DNA of 64,000 nucleotides, taken from Cochleicola gelatinilyticus. Its GTDB lineage: Bacteria; Bacteroidota; Bacteroidia; Flavobacteriales; Flavobacteriaceae. Below are positions 1-6,416 of this stretch, piece after piece (the stretch's first letter is position 1; every line of letters begins with the position of its first letter). The notes beneath the pieces were generated by a model. That model saw nothing but the letters and a program-made list of their open reading frames with translations. It was not told the DNA's origin and made no database searches. The translations under genes and the position numbers were made by a program. Location: contig NZ_LRXL01000012.1 in the NCBI RefSeq assembly GCF_001637325.1, positions 1 through 64,000 of the forward strand, in the 5' to 3' direction.

Positions 1-25
1 CTTATGCAAACCGTTGGCAATAATT
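1..25 (+). repeat. attC-like repeat 0, right arm only
   Basis: The window opens inside the right arm of an inverted repeat of the family described at 1014-1216. It shows the inner box (TTATGC, compare TTATAC elsewhere), a short spacer and the outer core CCGTTGGCAATAA. The outer core GTTGGCAAT is exactly complementary to ATTGCCAAC at 1015-1023, the far end of the same cassette. The left arm lies before the window. Confidence 0.55.
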
Positions 26-37
26 AAAAAAATTTTA

Positions 38-1006
38 ATGCTCGATATTAAGGTTGTTTTACCAACATTTGAAAAATCGCCTCTCCACGAAGCCTATTCT
101 ATATCGAAAGTACTTTCAGCTAAGCGAAGTAAAAAAGTGATCCTAGGGAAAAAAAAGGATAAAGTTTGCCGGTTTTGTAGTATGAATGAAAGTCAAACTT
201 CGTTCAAAAATTTAGCTCATCTAATTCCTGAGTTTATGGGAAACAAAACTTTGTTTTCAAATTATGAATGTGACAATTGTAATAACTATTTTGGTAATCT
301 CGAAACTTCACTCTCTGGTTTAGGTGGAGTGTTCAATTCTCTAGCAACACTCAAAGGAAAAAAGGGATTCCCCAAGTTTAAGGACAACTCTGATGAAATA
401 GAAATATTTGCAAGGTCTATTAAAGATATTGTAATTCGTTTTAATAATCCGGAAAAAAAATCCAGAAGTATTCAAAGAGATACAAATAATAAATTATATC
501 ATTTTAATATTCAGCAACCTTCCTATATACCGCAAAATGCATTTAAATCACTAATGAAAATCGGTGTCGGGATGATGCCAGAAACTGAATTCAATGATTA
601 CAAAAATACAATGGCTTGGCTATTAGATGGAAATAGTGTTGATCAAACCAATAATCCATTGTTTCAAGTATATCGAAAATTAGGAGGTGAAAGAAGATTT
701 CTTCAACCTTGGGCAATTTTGTTCAAGAAAAGAGAATTTAATAATAATTACTTATATCCAAAACATACATTGGTCATTTTTTATGGAATTCTAACATATC
801 AAATTTTTATACCAACTGTCGAGGACAAAGATTTATTATTCAATCAAAATGAAATGATACTGCCGATATCAAAATATCTCGTAGAGTTGAAAAGGAATGA
901 CAAAGTAAATAATACAGCTCATGTTGTCCCAATTAATCTTGGCTCAAATTTGAAATTTCGACCAAAACGGATAGAGTTTAGTTCACATTTTCGTACACAT
1001 GAATAA
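38..1006 (+). CDS. HNH-type zinc-finger nuclease-like protein
   Basis: I recognise only the N-terminal third. It has CRFC (about residue 44 from the ATG), then AHLIPEFMGN, then CDNCNNYFG. This C-x2-C, H, C-x2-C-N-N-x-F spacing is typical of HNH_5-type finger domains, with the histidine of AHLIPE as likely catalytic base. The rest (about 200 residues) has no motif I recognise. The ATG at 38 is preferred; a TTG at 14 would sit inside the repeat core. The gene is alone in its cassette, and its stop lies just before the next repeat. The codon use is AT-rich, as in the rest of the array. Nuclease activity is inference; a nucleic-acid-binding or toxin role is possible. Confidence 0.6.
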   Translation: MLDIKVVLPTFEKSPLHEAYSISKVLSAKRSKKVILGKKKDKVCRFCSMNESQTSFKNLAHLIPEFMGNKTLFSNYECDNCNNYFGNLETSLSGLGGVFNSLATLKGKKGFPKFKDNSDEIEIFARSIKDIVIRFNNPEKKSRSIQRDTNNKLYHFNIQQPSYIPQNAFKSLMKIGVGMMPETEFNDYKNTMAWLLDGNSVDQTNNPLFQVYRKLGGERRFLQPWAILFKKREFNNNYLYPKHTLVIFYGILTYQIFIPTVEDKDLLFNQNEMILPISKYLVELKRNDKVNNTAHVVPINLGSNLKFRPKRIEFSSHFRTHE

Positions 1007-1013
1007 AATTAAC

Positions 1014-1216
1014 TATTGCCAACAACGGGTATAAGTAATACGGGTGCTCTAGTTTATTCGAAAGTTTCGGTATATTTGGTACGACCGCCAAATCTTCTGA
1101 TTTGGCTTTTTGAGAAAATAAAATGTAAAAAGAAAAACACAAGATTTGGCTATAGGCTAGACAGAGAGCAAGGTAACTTCCCTCCCGCACTACTCATACC
1201 CAAACCGTTGTGCGCA
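1014..1216 (+). repeat. attC-like repeat 1
   Basis: Imperfect inverted repeat of about 200 bp between two unrelated genes. Left arm 1015-1049: outer box ATTGCCAAC, spacer, inner box GTATAAGTAAT, then ACGGG. Right arm 1183-1216: CCCGC, inner box ACTCATAC, a longer spacer (CCAAACC), outer box GTTGTGCGC. The mismatches in the paired arms are A opposite C on the top strand, so on the bottom strand they become T-G wobble pairs and the bottom strand folds better. An internal hairpin GCCAAAT (1087-1093) / ATTTGGC (1100-1106) recurs in repeat 2. The R-spacer-L, L-spacer-R layout with AAC/GTT cores matches integron attC sites. Confidence 0.65.
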
Positions 1217-1230
1217 AGCTAAAAAAAACA

Positions 1231-1794
1231 ATGAATATTAATAAAAAATGGTGGAAAGATTTTTATGCTCAACAAGCGCTTTGGTTCGGAATGGCTTGTA
1301 TTGGTTGTGCTTTCTATTTTTTTGCGCCAACTTTATTCACAACAGAAAAATCTCTGATTGAACGAAACGGCGAAATTGAATTCGTTGAGACTTATTACAA
1401 TCAAGTAAGTTCAAGAGGACATAAGAGCATAAAATCGGAATTAAGGTTTGCTATTAAAAATGATAATAAAAAATACGGTGTATTTAAAAATATCCAGCAA
1501 AGTAGAAGAAATGAAAATTATGAACGTATAAAAAACGAACTGAATAAATCAGGGAAAGTTGCGGTTTGGGTTAAAGAAAATGAACAATCATATGTCGAAC
1601 CAAAAGTATTCCGAATTGCAAATGGGCAAAACGAAATTTTATATGATATGGACGATGTGAAATCCGAATTAAAATTCCTTTTTCCATTTTTATTAATATT
1701 AGGTGTTTTTGGAATTGGACTTTACTTTAATCATAAATATCCAACTCGTATGAAAAGCCTGATTGGAAAAAAGCCAGCGCACAACAAAGTATAA
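1231..1794 (+). CDS. small membrane protein, function unknown
   Basis: About 187 residues from the ATG at 1231. A hydrophobic segment near residues 16-36 (ALWFGMACIGCAFYFF) and another near 145-167 (FLFPFLLILGVFGIGLYF) flank a soluble, probably extracytoplasmic domain. This layout resembles DUF3592-like membrane proteins, but I see no decisive motif. An upstream GTG at 1210 is inside the repeat core and is not favoured. The stop codon (1792-1794) lies inside the conserved GTATAA inner box of the next repeat, as is common for genes in integron cassettes. The only gene of its cassette. No function can be assigned. Confidence 0.7.
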   Translation: MNINKKWWKDFYAQQALWFGMACIGCAFYFFAPTLFTTEKSLIERNGEIEFVETYYNQVSSRGHKSIKSELRFAIKNDNKKYGVFKNIQQSRRNENYERIKNELNKSGKVAVWVKENEQSYVEPKVFRIANGQNEILYDMDDVKSELKFLFPFLLILGVFGIGLYFNHKYPTRMKSLIGKKPAHNKV

Positions 1795-1981
1795 AAACAA
1801 TAGGGCATTTAGCTGCTTAACCAAATGGTTCGGGTTTATTTGCAAAGTCGCCAAATTTTTAAATTTGGCTTATTGAGAGAAAAAAATAATAAGAAAAATT
1901 AAAAAATTCGGCTTGTGTTCAACCGAATGGTTTGCGCTCATTTTCAGCCCTACTGTTCTTATACAGAGCCGTTGCCCACAA
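1777..1981 (+). repeat. attC-like repeat 2
   Basis: About 205 bp. Left arm 1777-1806: outer GCGCACAAC, spacer AAA, inner GTATAAAAACAAT, AGGGC. Right arm 1947-1979: GCCCTACTGTTCTTATAC, spacer AGAGCC, outer GTTGCCCAC. Both inner mismatches are again A opposite C on top, T-G on the bottom strand. Internal hairpin GCCAAATTT (1850-1858) / AAATTTGGC (1861-1869). The left outer box GCGCACAAC is the exact complement of GTTGTGCGC at 1208-1216, the start of the same cassette, and fits its in-place partner GTTGCCCAC less well. Confidence 0.7.
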
Positions 1982-2056
1982 TTAAAAAAAGGGTCAATCT
2001 ATTTCAGTATAATACAAAACGTACAAATAATTATAATACAAAAATCGATCAACTTT

Positions 2057-2072
2057 TTTGCCATTTGACAAA
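2057..2072. promoter_or_regulatory. candidate operator of the Crp-like regulator (site 1)
   Basis: Imperfect inverted repeat TTTGCCA-TT-TGACAAA just upstream of the Crp/Fnr-family gene. It is nearly identical to a perfect copy at 2682-2697. The 7-2-7 layout is like Crp/Fnr sites, which suggests autoregulation. Inferred from sequence only. Confidence 0.5.
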
Positions 2073-2106
2073 TTCCGAATAAAATGCAATGACAACCTTT
2101 GTGACT

Positions 2107-2673
2107 ATGGACAAATTAATAAACTATCTGTTGGAATTTGGGCAGTTAAATCAACAGCAAATTGACTTGATAAAAAGAAAAGCACAGGTATTGGTGTTGA
2201 AAAAAGGGAATTACTTTTCCGAAGCAGGAAAAATTCCAAAACAAGTAGCTTTTATTGAAGAAGGTATTTTACGGGTATGTTACTATAACAGCAAAAGTGA
2301 TGAAATCACCAAATACTTTGTTGATGAAAACAATTTTGCAGTGGATATAAACAGCTTCAATCAAAAAATTCCCTCTTCAGAATATGTACAGGCTTTAACA
2401 GATTGTTCACTACTTGTATTTTCTACAGAATCACTCAACGATTTGTCAGCTACTATCATTCAGTGGGACAGCATTATCTATAAAATAACAGAAAAAGCAT
2501 TGGTTGAAAAGGTTAATAAACTAAGTCCAATGTTAGCCGAAGATGCTACAACAAGGTATCTTAGTTTTTTAGAAAAGTTTCCGAATTTAGCCAACAGAAT
2601 ACCGCTTTCCTATCTCGCCTCTTATTTAGGAATCACGCAATCATCGTTAAGCAGGATTCGAAAAAGCATCTGA
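2107..2673 (+). CDS. Crp/Fnr family transcriptional regulator
   Basis: About 188 residues: an N-terminal cyclic-nucleotide-binding-like beta roll (about residues 8-115, including LKKGNYFSEAGK and FIEEGILRVCYY) and a short C-terminal helix-turn-helix ending YLASYLGITQSSLSRIRKSI. This compact form, ending right after the recognition helix, is common in Bacteroidota and usually does not conserve cAMP-contact residues. A second ATG at 2089 is in frame; 2107 (MDKLINYLL) fits family starts better. It is followed by an SDR gene, and near-identical palindromes precede both genes, so it probably controls itself and the SDR. Together they form a regulator-target cassette. Confidence 0.8.
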   Translation: MDKLINYLLEFGQLNQQQIDLIKRKAQVLVLKKGNYFSEAGKIPKQVAFIEEGILRVCYYNSKSDEITKYFVDENNFAVDINSFNQKIPSSEYVQALTDCSLLVFSTESLNDLSATIIQWDSIIYKITEKALVEKVNKLSPMLAEDATTRYLSFLEKFPNLANRIPLSYLASYLGITQSSLSRIRKSI

Positions 2674-2681
2674 ATTCATTA

Positions 2682-2697
2682 TTTGCCAAATGGCAAA
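2682..2697. promoter_or_regulatory. candidate operator of the Crp-like regulator (site 2)
   Basis: Perfect inverted repeat TTTGCCA-AA-TGGCAAA in the gap between the regulator gene and the SDR gene. It shares 14 of 16 positions with the site at 2057-2072. Two such sites flanking one regulator gene are hard to explain by chance and mark the likely binding motif. Confidence 0.55.
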
Positions 2698-2756
2698 AGT
2701 TTTTGCTTTTGAAGTGCTGAACTTTGCTTCAGCATTTTAATAGAAAACAAAAAAGT

Positions 2757-3680
2757 ATGGATTCAATTATTATTACAGGAGCAACCAGTGGAATTGGTTT
2801 TGAGTGTGCTTTACAAATGGCTCAAATTGCCAAAAACGAACTAATTATCATTCCTGCCAGAAATATTGGAGCAGGAAAAGACATAATAGAAAAAATAAAA
2901 GATAAGACAGGTCATAAAAACCTAAAATGCTTGGAATTGGATTTGGCTTCTTTAGAATCTATACGAAAGTTTTCAGAATCATTTGCCAAAGAAAAAAACA
3001 ACTCCATTTCTATCTTGATAAATAATGCAGGAGTACAGAATATTGGCGAAACACAATATACGGCCGATGGATTTGAGCAAACATTTGGTGTAAATCATCT
3101 TGGTTCGTTTGCCTTGACTATTCAATTGCTACCCTTTATCAAAAATGAAGGCCACATAATATTCACATCTAGCGAAACACACGACCCAGCACTCAAAAAA
3201 CCAATAGAACCACCAGTTTATACCAGTGTTCAAGAGCTTGCTTTCCCAAAAGACACTTCCGAAAAACCTAACATAGTTGGACAAAGAAGGTATTCTACTT
3301 CAAAATTGTGTAACATAATGACTACTTATGAATTACAAGAGCGATTAAAAAAAACAAACATTAGGGTAAATGCCTATGACCCAGGAATGACACCAGGAAC
3401 AGGACTTGCCAAAACTTATTCACCTGTTATGCGATTTTTATGGAAAAATGTATTCCCTGTTTTGACCTTATTAAAAAGCAACATACACACACCAACTCAA
3501 GCAGGAAGAAATTTAGCAAACCTAGCGTATTCTGAAAATTACAAAGACTTGGAGGGAATTTATTTCTCGGATGGGAAAGTTGTTAAAACATCTATTGATT
3601 CTTATAACAAGGTTTTTCAAAAAAGTCTGTGGAATGATAGCCTGGAATTGACAAAAACCACATTTAACAAAATAACATAA
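2757..3680 (+). CDS. short-chain dehydrogenase/reductase (retinol-dehydrogenase-like)
   Basis: About 307 residues from the ATG at 2757 (MDSIIITGATSGIG). The Rossmann motif TGATSGIG, the NNAG motif (INNAGVQ), the catalytic serine (FTSSETH) and the YSTSK active site (Tyr and Lys) are all present, so it should be an active NAD(P)-dependent oxidoreductase. The insert between the serine and the YxxxK (about 45 residues with several prolines) is as in the retinol dehydrogenase/protochlorophyllide-reductase-like group. Substrate unknown. It is second in a two-gene cassette behind a Crp-like regulator, whose putative operator lies directly upstream. Confidence 0.85.
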   Translation: MDSIIITGATSGIGFECALQMAQIAKNELIIIPARNIGAGKDIIEKIKDKTGHKNLKCLELDLASLESIRKFSESFAKEKNNSISILINNAGVQNIGETQYTADGFEQTFGVNHLGSFALTIQLLPFIKNEGHIIFTSSETHDPALKKPIEPPVYTSVQELAFPKDTSEKPNIVGQRRYSTSKLCNIMTTYELQERLKKTNIRVNAYDPGMTPGTGLAKTYSPVMRFLWKNVFPVLTLLKSNIHTPTQAGRNLANLAYSENYKDLEGIYFSDGKVVKTSIDSYNKVFQKSLWNDSLELTKTTFNKIT

Positions 3681-3701
3681 AGGAACTTCTGAAAAAAATG
3701 G

Positions 3702-3836
3702 CAGCAGGTAACAATGTATAAAAATAATATCGGCTTTGGTGCTTAATCAAAGTCGCTTTTTTATATTTACTGTCGGTTCTACAGTAGAAGGTTAGCGATT
3801 CTAAATCCGCTACTATTCTTATACTAAACGTAAGTG
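3702..3836 (+). repeat. attC-like repeat 3
   Basis: About 135 bp, the shortest clear member. Left arm 3702-3734: outer GCAGGTAAC, spacer AAT, inner GTATAAAAATAAT, ATCGGC. Right arm 3806-3836: CCGCTACTATTCTTATAC, spacer TAAAC, outer GTAAGTGG. The right outer box departs from GTT (GTA). Two of the three inner mismatches are A opposite C. The left outer box matches the start of its own cassette (GTTGCCCAC at 1971-1979) at 6 of 9 positions. Confidence 0.6.
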
Positions 3837-3867
3837 GTGATTTTTAAAGATATCTAGAATTAAATAA

Positions 3868-4314
3868 ATGAATAAGAACGAATTAACAACTTTTTTTTGA
3901 AAGAGACTTGAACAAATTAATTACTGAAATAGAACTATACAAAAAAGAAGAAAATATTTGGCGAGTAGAAAAAGGTGTTTCTAATTCTGCAGGAAATTTA
4001 ACGCTACATTTAATTGGTAACTTACACACATTTATTGGAAAAGAAATTGGTAAAACAAACTATGTTAGAAATAGAGAACTTGAATTTACTCAAAAAAATG
4101 TTCCAAGAAAAGAGTTGATCGAAAGTATAAATGACACAATAGAAATGGTTAAAAATCACTTAATTCTATTACAAACGAAGAATTAAAAAAAGATTATCCA
4201 ATTTTAAAGTTTCCTAAAGTAGAAACAAATGAATATTTACTAGTTCATTTGATAAACCATTTAACTTATCATCTTGGACAAATAAATTATCATAGAAGGC
4301 TAATAGAGGAATAA
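3868..4314 (+). pseudogene. DinB-superfamily (DUF1572-like) gene with two frameshifts
   Basis: The reading starts at ATG 3868 (MNKNELTTFF) and runs into TGA after a run of eight T (3891-3898). With seven T it continues FERDLNKLITEIELYKKEENIW, GNLTLHLIGNLHTFIG and so on in the next frame. Near 4170 one base is missing and the original frame resumes as TNEELKKDYPILKFPKVETNEYLL and ends GQINYHRRLIEE. This full pattern, with His residues in LHLIGN and YHLGQINYH, is that of DUF1572/DinB-like four-helix metal-binding proteins of about 150 residues. The middle piece is open only from a TTG at 3908 to 4186. The two indels compensate each other. Either a decayed gene or sequence error in a homopolymer. 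Confidence 0.75.
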
Positions 4315-4318
4315 AAAC

Positions 4319-4536
4319 TTCCACTAACATGGTATAAAAATCATGGCTCTTGCAATAATAGTTTAATATTCTCTGCAAATAATTAACTATATTGGTATCT
4401 GACAATTTCGTGGAGGCTTGCCTTTCTGAGACTCACGCATCGTCGAATAATTTGGTGCCGAGGCAAAGGCTAAAGTTCAAGCTGCTTCAAGCCGCACGCT
4501 GCGCCAAGCACCACGATTGTTATACTTAACCGTTGT
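4319..4536 (+). repeat. attC-like repeat 4
   Basis: About 218 bp. Left arm 4321-4352: outer CCACTAAC, spacer ATG, inner GTATAAAAATCATGG, then CTCTTGC. Right arm 4503-4536: GCCAAGCACCACGATTGTTATAC, spacer TTAACC, outer GTTGT. The left outer box CCACTAAC pairs with GTAAGTGG at 3829-3836, the start of its own cassette, at 7 of 8 positions, but not with its in-place right arm (GTTGTATT). The centre is more GC-rich (4401-4510) than in repeats 1-3. Confidence 0.65.
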
Positions 4537-4565
4537 ATTTAATTTTACCGGCCTATCCAGAAATC

Positions 4566-5348
4566 ATGGAAATACAGTATAAAAAATGGTTTGAATTAAG
4601 AATATTTCATCAATACTATAATGATGGTAAGATTCCAATATCTTTAGTTCCTACACAAGAATCTACTATAATAATGCAAAAAAATAAAATTCTTATAAGT
4701 AAAAGCGAGGGGCTATTTGAATTTTATATTGGGTTGGATTCTGTCAATTTAGACCATGCTTCTCTAATTCAAAATATAGAAGATATCGAGTTCAAGATTA
4801 TAATAGATCATCATTCATTTTTCTATTACACAGATTTGTCAACAAAAAATTCAGAAGAATATTTCTTATTCCGAAATATAGTAAGCACACCTGATTTAAT
4901 AAAGGAAAAATATTCTTCTGAAACTCTAGTAGAACAACTTGAAGAGAACGTTATAGGGATGCTTCAAATTAATGTTAAAAATTTACAAACGGACTATCTA
5001 ACTTTATCATTTGAAGCACGGAAAGTCTTTTTCGAATATCAAGTTATAATTCCAACTCACCACAATTGGGAAATTATTGATTTAAAGGTATTGGGTTATC
5101 AGAATGAAAAATATTATGGCCCTATTGAAAAATTGATTGATGGTGTTCAAAAGGCCCATGTCTTTATAAGTACTGAAACGTTACCTCTTAGTCAAGACTA
5201 TCCTGTACCTGCTGAGTTAATTTTGCAATATAAACACGGTTCCTCTGATATAAAAGAATTGAACATGCAACTGCCAAATGCTTCATTCAACAACTTACAT
5301 TATAATGATGATGACCAACCAGTTTATTCTGCGATTATATACGTCTAG
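4566..5348 (+). CDS. hypothetical protein, cassette-borne
   Basis: 260 residues from ATG 4566; an in-frame TTG at 4533 lies within the repeat core. No signal peptide or membrane segment. Key stretches are YKKWFELRIFHQYY at the start, SLVPTQES, and FFYYTDLS around residue 90, followed by YFLFRN. From memory, this start and the FxxYTDL/YYFxN pattern resemble an uncharacterised protein encoded in contractile-injection-type (tail-like) loci of Bacteroidota, but I could not test this and no such locus is nearby. Alone in its cassette. Function unassigned. Confidence 0.6.
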   Translation: MEIQYKKWFELRIFHQYYNDGKIPISLVPTQESTIIMQKNKILISKSEGLFEFYIGLDSVNLDHASLIQNIEDIEFKIIIDHHSFFYYTDLSTKNSEEYFLFRNIVSTPDLIKEKYSSETLVEQLEENVIGMLQINVKNLQTDYLTLSFEARKVFFEYQVIIPTHHNWEIIDLKVLGYQNEKYYGPIEKLIDGVQKAHVFISTETLPLSQDYPVPAELILQYKHGSSDIKELNMQLPNASFNNLHYNDDDQPVYSAIIYV

Positions 5349-5573
5349 TAGTTACCTATAAAACAATCAAAGCAGTATTACATACACTTAACTATCATTA
5401 AGAACATATACAATTCATTCTGCAAAGCGTTTATCATAAAAATTAGATGACATTAATCTTGATCACTTACGATGATAAAGAAACTGTAGCTTCGCTCAAA
5501 AGACGGACGAACAACCCATATGGTTTCGCTGTCTGAGTAAAACAATTTTTATACAAACCCCTTCGCAATAATT
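5349..5573 (+). repeat. attC-like repeat 5 (degenerate)
   Basis: A gene-free stretch follows the stop codon. A possible left arm is at 5350-5371 (GTTAC, then CTATAAAACAAT). The right arm at 5545-5573 is clearer: ATTTTTATAC, spacer AAACCC, outer CTTCGCAATAATTT, like the core at 1-25. The right core lacks the usual GTT (CTT) and arm pairing is poor, so this may be an eroded site. Confidence 0.4.
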
Positions 5574-5629
5574 TAAACAGTGTACTTTCCTAAATTTGAG
5601 AGCCCTTTTGGAATTAATAAAGTTTTGTC

Positions 5630-5784
5630 CAAATTGTAACGAATATATTTTGGTACTGCTCTAGGGGTTGGGTATAATTTTGTAAATCAATTCAGAGTAA
5701 ATGCCCGATCATTTTGCAGAATTAATCTAAAAGTCCGTACCTGTTAACACGCTATGAGTCATATACAAACATGTTGGCAATAAA
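5630..5784 (+). repeat. attC-like repeat 6 (degenerate)
   Basis: The right arm at 5755-5784 is convincing: GAGTCATATAC, spacer AAACAT, outer GTTGGCAATAAATAAAG. A possible left arm at 5632-5667 contains ATTGTAAC and then CTGCTCTAG, the latter shared with repeat 1 (1045-1053). The sequence between repeats 5 and 6 (5574-5630) holds no gene, so this would be an empty or eroded cassette. Confidence 0.4.
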
Positions 5785-6416
5785 TAAAGTTAGGTTAAAT
5801 ATCGAAAAGTTTGTCTTTGGCACAGCAACCGTAGCTGGCATCGCATTTCCCTATCCTTAAATACGGAAATTCAGCACTAAAAAAAGCTACATCAAAAAAA
5901 GTAGAAGATTATACATTTGAAAGTGAGGTTTTAAATCCGCATATAATCAATTTCAAAAAACTTAAGGACAGCTTGTGGGTAATAAAGGTTAAGAGCTTTT
6001 TCTACCCAAGAAGCGCGTCTGGACAAACTATGACTACCTACGATTTTGATTTTACCATTGAAAATAATTTTCTTAATATTAAACTCTCAAATATTGAACA
6101 AGAATATATTTCCGTAAAAATTCATAGAAATTATAATTTTATTTTGAGCAATTTTAATATAACCATAAGTACATTAGTTAGGGAGCATTTGAAGGAAAAT
6201 GAAACTGTACAGGAAGAAAAAATGATAGATTTAGGAGCATCAACTATCAATATATATAATAGAAGTTTGCAAGCAAAAAAAGTAGAAGCAAAAAATGAAG
6301 CACAATTTTTTATACCGTCATTGACCAAAGAAGTTCAAAATATAAAAAGTCATTTCGTAAATAGTAAAATTAAAGGTACGACCAGCAGTATTTTAAATGA
6401 ATTCTTACAAACATAA
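5771..6416 (+). pseudogene. unknown gene, probably frameshifted
   Basis: An ORF of 147 codons is open from a TTG at 5973 with no ATG, but the same frame is open back to 5835 (KYGNSALKKATSKKVEDY then VLNPHIINFKKLKDSLWVIKV). In another frame an ATG at 5771, directly in the repeat core, gives KFVFGTATVAGIAFPYP and then stops at 5858. Removing one T at about 5857 joins the two into one protein of about 214 residues. No domain recognised; soluble, with a beta-rich middle and a Lys/Glu-rich C-terminus. It is the last cassette-like gene; no repeat follows it. Confidence 0.45.

Follow-up and report, generated by a model that had tools for sequence, protein, structure and literature searches.

Sedentary chromosomal integrons, e.g., the Vibrio superintegron, consist of a tyrosine recombinase, an adjoining attI site and a string of small cassettes whose attC sites form hairpins. 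Their attC sites have an AAC/GTT core and a bottom-strand bias, and the arrays hold tens to more than 100 cassettes. The integron is defined by the integrase IntI, which carries an extra domain (PMC9668308), and the strand asymmetry of canonical attC sites arises through extrahelical bases (PMC2727003). Salinibacter ruber was the only Bacteroidetes sensu stricto species named with a complete integron by IntegronFinder 2.0 (PMC9024848). The window analyzed here is the first 64 kb (64,000 nucleotides) of contig C12 (188 kb) of Cochleicola gelatinilyticus, a member of Flavobacteriaceae with a genome of 3.39 Mb in 53 contigs. Positions 1-5790 of the window hold gene cassettes separated by attC-like sites and very probably form the far end of a gene-capture system of the integron type, which is served by a tyrosine recombinase encoded on contig C48. 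With high confidence, the system works like an integron, and it shares with the Vibrio superintegron the tyrosine recombinase beside an attI, the array of small cassettes with hairpin sites, the AAC/GTT core, the bottom-strand bias and the range of array sizes. It differs in two features by which integrons are defined, i.e., the IntI domain and the RYYYAAC/GTTRRRY boxes.

Five Phage_integrase proteins were found in the genome, i.e., XerD (C44), XerC (C1), two distant ones, and the protein of 290 aa on C48 (C48:120811-121683), a third recombinase apart from XerC and XerD. The C48 integrase has the catalytic set R148, K173, H237, R240, H263 and Y272. The IntI-specific insertion is absent, with a KGxxDR-HxxRH spacing of 64-65 against 88-106 in IntI. 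In the NCBIfam search, the integron integrase model TIGR02249 scored 177 bits, below its cut-off of 265, and the best model, XerA_Arch (NF040815), scored 209 bits, below its cut-off of 220. XerD (186 bits, cut-off 330) and XerC (169 bits, cut-off 335) were also below their cut-offs; the likely true XerD and XerC, both encoded elsewhere in the genome, score 336 and 309. In an unrooted tree of 102 proteins, the IntI clade and the XerC/XerD clade were each supported by SH-aLRT of 100, and the C48-type group formed a third clade (88). The best solved-structure matches were archaeal XerA and other simple Xer recombinases. Xer proteins serve in chromosome dimer resolution, whereas the C48 integrase adjoins an attI-like site and cassettes. 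In relatives of the integrase, an N-terminal domain (e.g., L190:9698-9931) has a confident predicted fold of bb-a-b-b-a-b, for which the Pfam search gave no family. Its best solved-structure match was weak (YciH/eIF1 fold, E=0.003). Assignment as a HARP-like DNA-junction domain was unsupported, i.e., the SMARCAL1 HARP domain matched only at E about 0.4.

The C48 integrase ends 97 bp before GTTAGCACAC, where the first cassette starts. The partner GTGTGCTAAC closes this cassette, and further sites lie beyond. A conserved attI-like site was found at the same place in 33 loci, i.e., 32 relatives plus this genome, with the first cassette starting 87-137 bp past the integrase stop codon in the relatives. 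The conserved stretch is about 70 bp, AAAAC.T..GCATA.CC..CC.AATTGG...TATA.GGA...AA.TT..GCATATAAACAA/GTT, where the slash stands before the GTT. The site of this genome fits the consensus and ends in TTTTTCTATAAACAA/GTT. A conserved site ending in ATATAAACAA/GTT stands beside the integrase, with the first cassette behind it. Because the sequence before GTT belongs to attI or to the previous site, and the sequence after it belongs to the cassette, the exchange point is placed in or at GTT. The C48-type integrase gene reads toward the array, whereas intI diverges from the array in classical integrons. In Treponema integrons the integrase is likewise in line with the cassettes, but these have a true IntI and other sites, and belong to another phylum.

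The attC-like sites were studied in the loci of the 80 closest integrase relatives from the GTDB scan. Nearly all of these relatives are labelled as Flavobacteriaceae genera, and a few metagenome-assembled genomes have broader or different labels. Around the 80 integrases, the structural finder placed 0.595 sites per kb in the downstream, sense quadrant against 0.090, 0.059 and 0.071 in the other three. A contig end lay within 3 kb of the integrase 3' end in 43 of the 80 loci, and of the 5' end in four. The longest open reading frame of the cassette was in sense in 182 cases and in antisense in five, and the median cassette was 750 bp. Over 7 positions, the starts of 249 cassettes gave 4.81 matches with their own ends, against 2.57 with the adjacent site and 2.27 (sd 0.08) with shuffled ends. 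The own-end fit covers about 13 nt. Position 11 is a constant mismatch in it, with A at the start in 143/145 and G in the complement of the end in 122/145.

The sites form a two-box hairpin. The covariation score was 0.457 against 0.109 (sd 0.011) when shuffled and at most 0.114 when slid, compensatory changes were present in 11 of 14 inner-stem pairs, and 95.9% of cells were paired. The left spacer usually has 3 nt and the right one 5-6 nt. Inner-stem mismatches, mostly at positions 7 and 12, were of the A/G kind in 389 of 502 cases; such a mismatch reads A-C in the top strand but G-T in the bottom one. For this reason the bottom strand folds better, i.e., more stably in 137 of 150 short sites. 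Canonical attC sites reach their asymmetry by extrahelical bases, whereas the bottom-strand preference here appears, at the level of sequence, to come from A-C/G-T mismatches and unequal spacers. The AAC/GTT cores are kept, but the R box is variable, with complementarity of own ends; GTTRRRY was found in 11 of 145 starts against nine by chance. Early loose pattern pairing produced numerous chance pairs on ordinary contigs, and in a simple site-pattern search the reversed pattern matched as often as the forward one, so that such a search is no proof alone. The pairing was superseded by the stem-based finder and then by a covariance model, R1, built from 52 attC-like sites, none of them inside the window. 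An Rfam search of the sites gave chance matches only.

In this genome, R1 counted 44 sites (E<=0.001). Sites of the same kind were found on eight further contigs, i.e., throughout the small contigs C5, C10, C13, C17, C18, C35 and C39 and at the end of C48, and within any one contig all were on one strand. In the sampled ends of large contigs, no R1 site was found except at the end of C48 and in the window. Several contig breaks fall inside near-identical sites, e.g., those of the GCATAA/TTATGC class with which C48, C5 and C10 end. Therefore, the simplest reading would be a single array, 56 kb long with about 45 cassettes, that was broken up by the assembler.

The cargo was searched in a sample of 86 cassette proteins plus this genome. 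Most of it was unrecognised, and the recognised part comprised type I, II and IIG restriction-modification (R-M), an LmuB-like protein, AAA ATPases, GNAT, cation efflux and a CdiI-type immunity protein. A type II R-M cassette of 3.9 kb (L030:2426-6303), encoding a cytosine methyltransferase and an MvaI/BcnI enzyme, is common to this genome, genome G087, Polaribacter aquimarinus and a Tenacibaculum, i.e., to four genera, with 80-90% nucleotide identity. The alignments start 12-24 nt before GTT, in the shared site arm, and the best case stops at the next GTT. The flanks are unrelated among the four genomes, and their integrases are identical in only 49-62% of residues. The shared cassette in unrelated flanks is direct evidence of cassette transfer between genera and, together with the own-end fit, marks the cassettes as mobile. 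The same cassette was looked for in phage records and not found. Within single arrays downstream of the integrase, near-identical cassettes of 340-365 bp recur (L190, L194, L137), possibly as recent duplications.

In a survey of 297 genomes of the phylum Bacteroidota, in which this integrase was called at E<=1e-55 and canonical IntI above its cut-off, sites were present in 117, the C48-type integrase in 82 and canonical IntI in 84. Sites were found in 65 of the 82 genomes with the C48-type integrase and in 52 of the 215 without it (p=4e-18, odds ratio 12-14). They were not associated with IntI (p=0.29), and genomes with IntI only were depleted in arrays of at least three sites. Canonical integrons of the Salinibacter ruber type (Bacteroidota/Chlorobi group) belong broadly to the same phylum, but none of the 84 IntI-positive genomes was of Flavobacteriaceae. 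The complete chromosome of G370 carries at least 144 sites, which form several clusters. In more distant families the same layout was found with different inner boxes, such as CGGTTTGGCAAAAG. The integron-like system is widespread in Flavobacteriaceae and related Bacteroidota.

The sites are also present in phages. Polaribacter phage P12002L (NC_028924) has at least 10 R1-type sites (L316:3400-13120, L315:14493-14634) among small phage genes. Some are only 65-77 nt long, and several show own-end fit, up to 7/7. Unlike in the bacterial arrays, the genes of the phage are oriented against the sites. An earlier report describes predicted attC sites in this lytic phage, one of which recombined with attI1 via IntI1 through the bottom strand, with no top-strand recombinants (PMC9892861). 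The available text of that report does not connect the phage sites with host arrays or with an integrase of Flavobacteriaceae. This assay is the best hint that such sites are live; the assayed attC2 was not matched to a coordinate. On a second viral contig, IMGVR_UViG_3300020412_000001 (70 kb), six sites (E<1e-7) were found within 4 kb (L317:4747-8297), which suggests phages as cassette carriers.

These results agree with an earlier note on the window, made from the sequence alone, in its main proposals. It had read the array as circular cassettes inserted near the GTT core as in integrons, and the integrase beside an attI-like site and the movement of a cassette between genera with GTT boundaries support this. 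The own-end fit that it described, against the adjacent site, was upheld in bulk, and the departure of the boxes from RYYYAAC/GTTRRRY was confirmed. Its guess of a distinct Bacteroidota system gained support, since the arrays accompany one integrase type in many genera. No integrase was visible to it because the array meets the contig edge at window position 1. The genome search that it proposed gave the integrase on C48 and the further sites, and the covariance model recovered the complete sites of the window. As grounds for refutation it had named the same order of genes and repeats in distant relatives, or repeats unrelated in structure. However, the shared cassette has differing neighbours, and the repeats have a common structure in which compensatory changes are seen.

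The system is proposed to work as follows. The C48 integrase would join two sites at the GTT core and excise the cassette between them as a circle, with the attC-like site serving as a substrate in the form of its folded bottom strand. The circle would then be inserted at the attI-like site. The choice of strand would probably come from the constant mismatches, A-C on the top strand but G-T pairs on the bottom one, and from the uneven spacers. New cassettes would enter beside the integrase, and older ones would drift outward and decay, as in the window.

Several points weigh against this proposal. Recombination itself is taken from analogy with integrons, and sequence places the exchange point at a resolution coarser than the exact G/TT cut. 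The C48 integrase is without the N-terminal domain, about 80 aa long, of most of its relatives. The array is spread over nine contigs, and its continuity from C48 to C12 is read from repeats at contig ends. In the survey, 17 of the 82 integrase-positive genomes show no site under a strict filter, and 15 of the 297 have at least three sites with neither a C48-type integrase at the threshold used nor IntI. These 15 are G119, G227, G235, G253, G258, G262, G285, G303, G307, G308, G325, G378, G388, G413 and G425. They may have orphan arrays or a more divergent integrase.

Among the alternatives, an ordinary sedentary chromosomal integron, i.e., canonical IntI and attC that are merely divergent in sequence, survives best but is improbable. 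It would share the architecture, the AAC/GTT cores, the two-box hairpin, the sense genes and the bottom-strand bias, and a Polaribacter phage with this kind of site had an attC usable by IntI1 (PMC9892861). However, the integrase falls short of the TIGR02249 cut-off, lacks the IntI insertion and stands apart from the single IntI clade. GTTRRRY is at chance level, the sites are not associated with IntI, and around 20 canonical IntI genes R1 matched none and the structural finder gave matches at background. A still smaller chance is left to mobilisation of the array by XerC/XerD, as dif-like modules, or by another integrase, with the C48 recombinase as a bystander. The genome does encode XerC, XerD and two other Phage_integrase proteins. 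But in tens of species it is the C48-type enzyme that adjoins attI and the first cassette, the co-occurrence with sites has p about 1e-17, and the sites do not appear dif-shaped. Intergenic hairpins such as terminators or REP-like palindromes, or RNA elements, are hardly credible: the sites do lie between genes, and for some of them the fold is better than that of shuffled sequence, but the A-C mismatches disrupt the strand that an RNA would have and favour its opposite, no credible Rfam match was found, and own-end fit, the adjacent integrase with attI and whole-cassette transfer with unrelated flanks speak for recombination sites. Terminators, REP elements and dif modules were rejected on these grounds, the last also by form.

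For the integron-type system of the C48 integrase, a second independent origin of integrons is conceivable, and it is offered only tentatively. A XerA-like recombinase without the IntI domain might have gained folded bottom-strand cassette recombination, with strand choice by A-C mismatches (G-T on the bottom) in place of extrahelical bases. It might then have become the main gene-capture system of Flavobacteriaceae and their relatives, with phages carrying cassettes. A literature search, which left most subscription journals and preprints outside its reach, gave no description of this system, and it is apparently undescribed so far. Integrons have been regarded as nearly absent from Bacteroidetes sensu stricto, with searches based on IntI and on the canonical model of attC. 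If a parallel system, with up to at least 144 sites in one chromosome, is present in Flavobacteriaceae, a large family of marine and fresh waters, the known range of gene cassettes would have to be redrawn. It would recast how restriction and other defence genes spread in Flavobacteriaceae. With integrase, attI and attC now identified, the system would also allow a natural test of the parts of IntI that single-strand recombination of cassettes requires.

In the window, all features of the array are on the + strand, and R1 found four complete attC-like sites with E of 1e-16 to 4e-12. The earlier note had counted six to seven inverted repeats. Seven were seen, but only four are complete, i.e., one is a half at the contig edge and two are decayed. 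The AAC and GTT cores and the GTATAA-type inner boxes were confirmed by direct reading. The self-matches quoted for three cassettes are present and reach 12, 11 and 9 of 13 when extended, although the quoted starts were one base off, the true starts being 13, 1207 and 3830. The fit did not hold for the cassettes starting at 1971 and 4532. Absence of self-match in two of the five cassettes is expected of old cassettes. For a random GTT/AAC pair in the window, a 9-nt match has a chance probability of 5e-4.

The array enters the window with the right half of a site at 1-25, cut by the contig edge and truncated at 5' (R1 positions 120-145, E=0.046). Cassette 1 (13-1206) begins with GTT at 13-15 and carries an HNH_5 endonuclease-domain gene (38-1006, Pfam E=2.5e-10) plus its own site. 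This site 1 (1011-1219) has AAC at 1021-1023, the inner stem and GTT at 1207-1209 (59.6 bits, E=4e-12; fold z -3.53). Cassette 2 (1207-1970) encodes a hypothetical protein of 187 aa (1231-1794) with no Pfam match. It ends in site 2 (1773-1983; GTATAAAAACAATA ... TTATAC, GTT 1971-1973), which scored 65.1 bits (E=1.7e-13). In cassette 3 (1971-3829), a Crp-type cyclic-nucleotide-binding regulator (2089-2673, PF00027) and a short-chain dehydrogenase (2757-3680, PF00106) were predicted by Pfam, and the self-match of the ends is gone (6/13). Site 3 (3700-3842) is of the short class, and GTA replaces GTT in its right core (77.7 bits, E=1.1e-16).

Cassette 4 (3830-4531) carries a DUF1572-like gene at 3908-4186 (PF07609, 19.7 bits, under the cut-off). 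An apparent frameshift was found near 4186, and the other frame runs to about 4314, which would fit decay in this far part of the array. Site 4 (4316-4544, GTT 4532-4534) scored 60.1 bits (E=3e-12). In cassette 5 (4532-5559), the open reading frame at 4566-5348 encodes a hypothetical protein of 260 aa, for which the Pfam search gave no match, and the ends do not self-match (4/13). Site 5 (5390-5573) is decayed, and by direct reading its core GTT is gone (18.4 bits, E=0.11). The distal end of the array is the seventh site (5728-5785), also read directly, of which only the right half is present (AAAAGTCCGTACC...CATATACAAACATGTT, GTT 5773-5775). This half belongs to a right-arm class shared with sites of loci L032 and L060.

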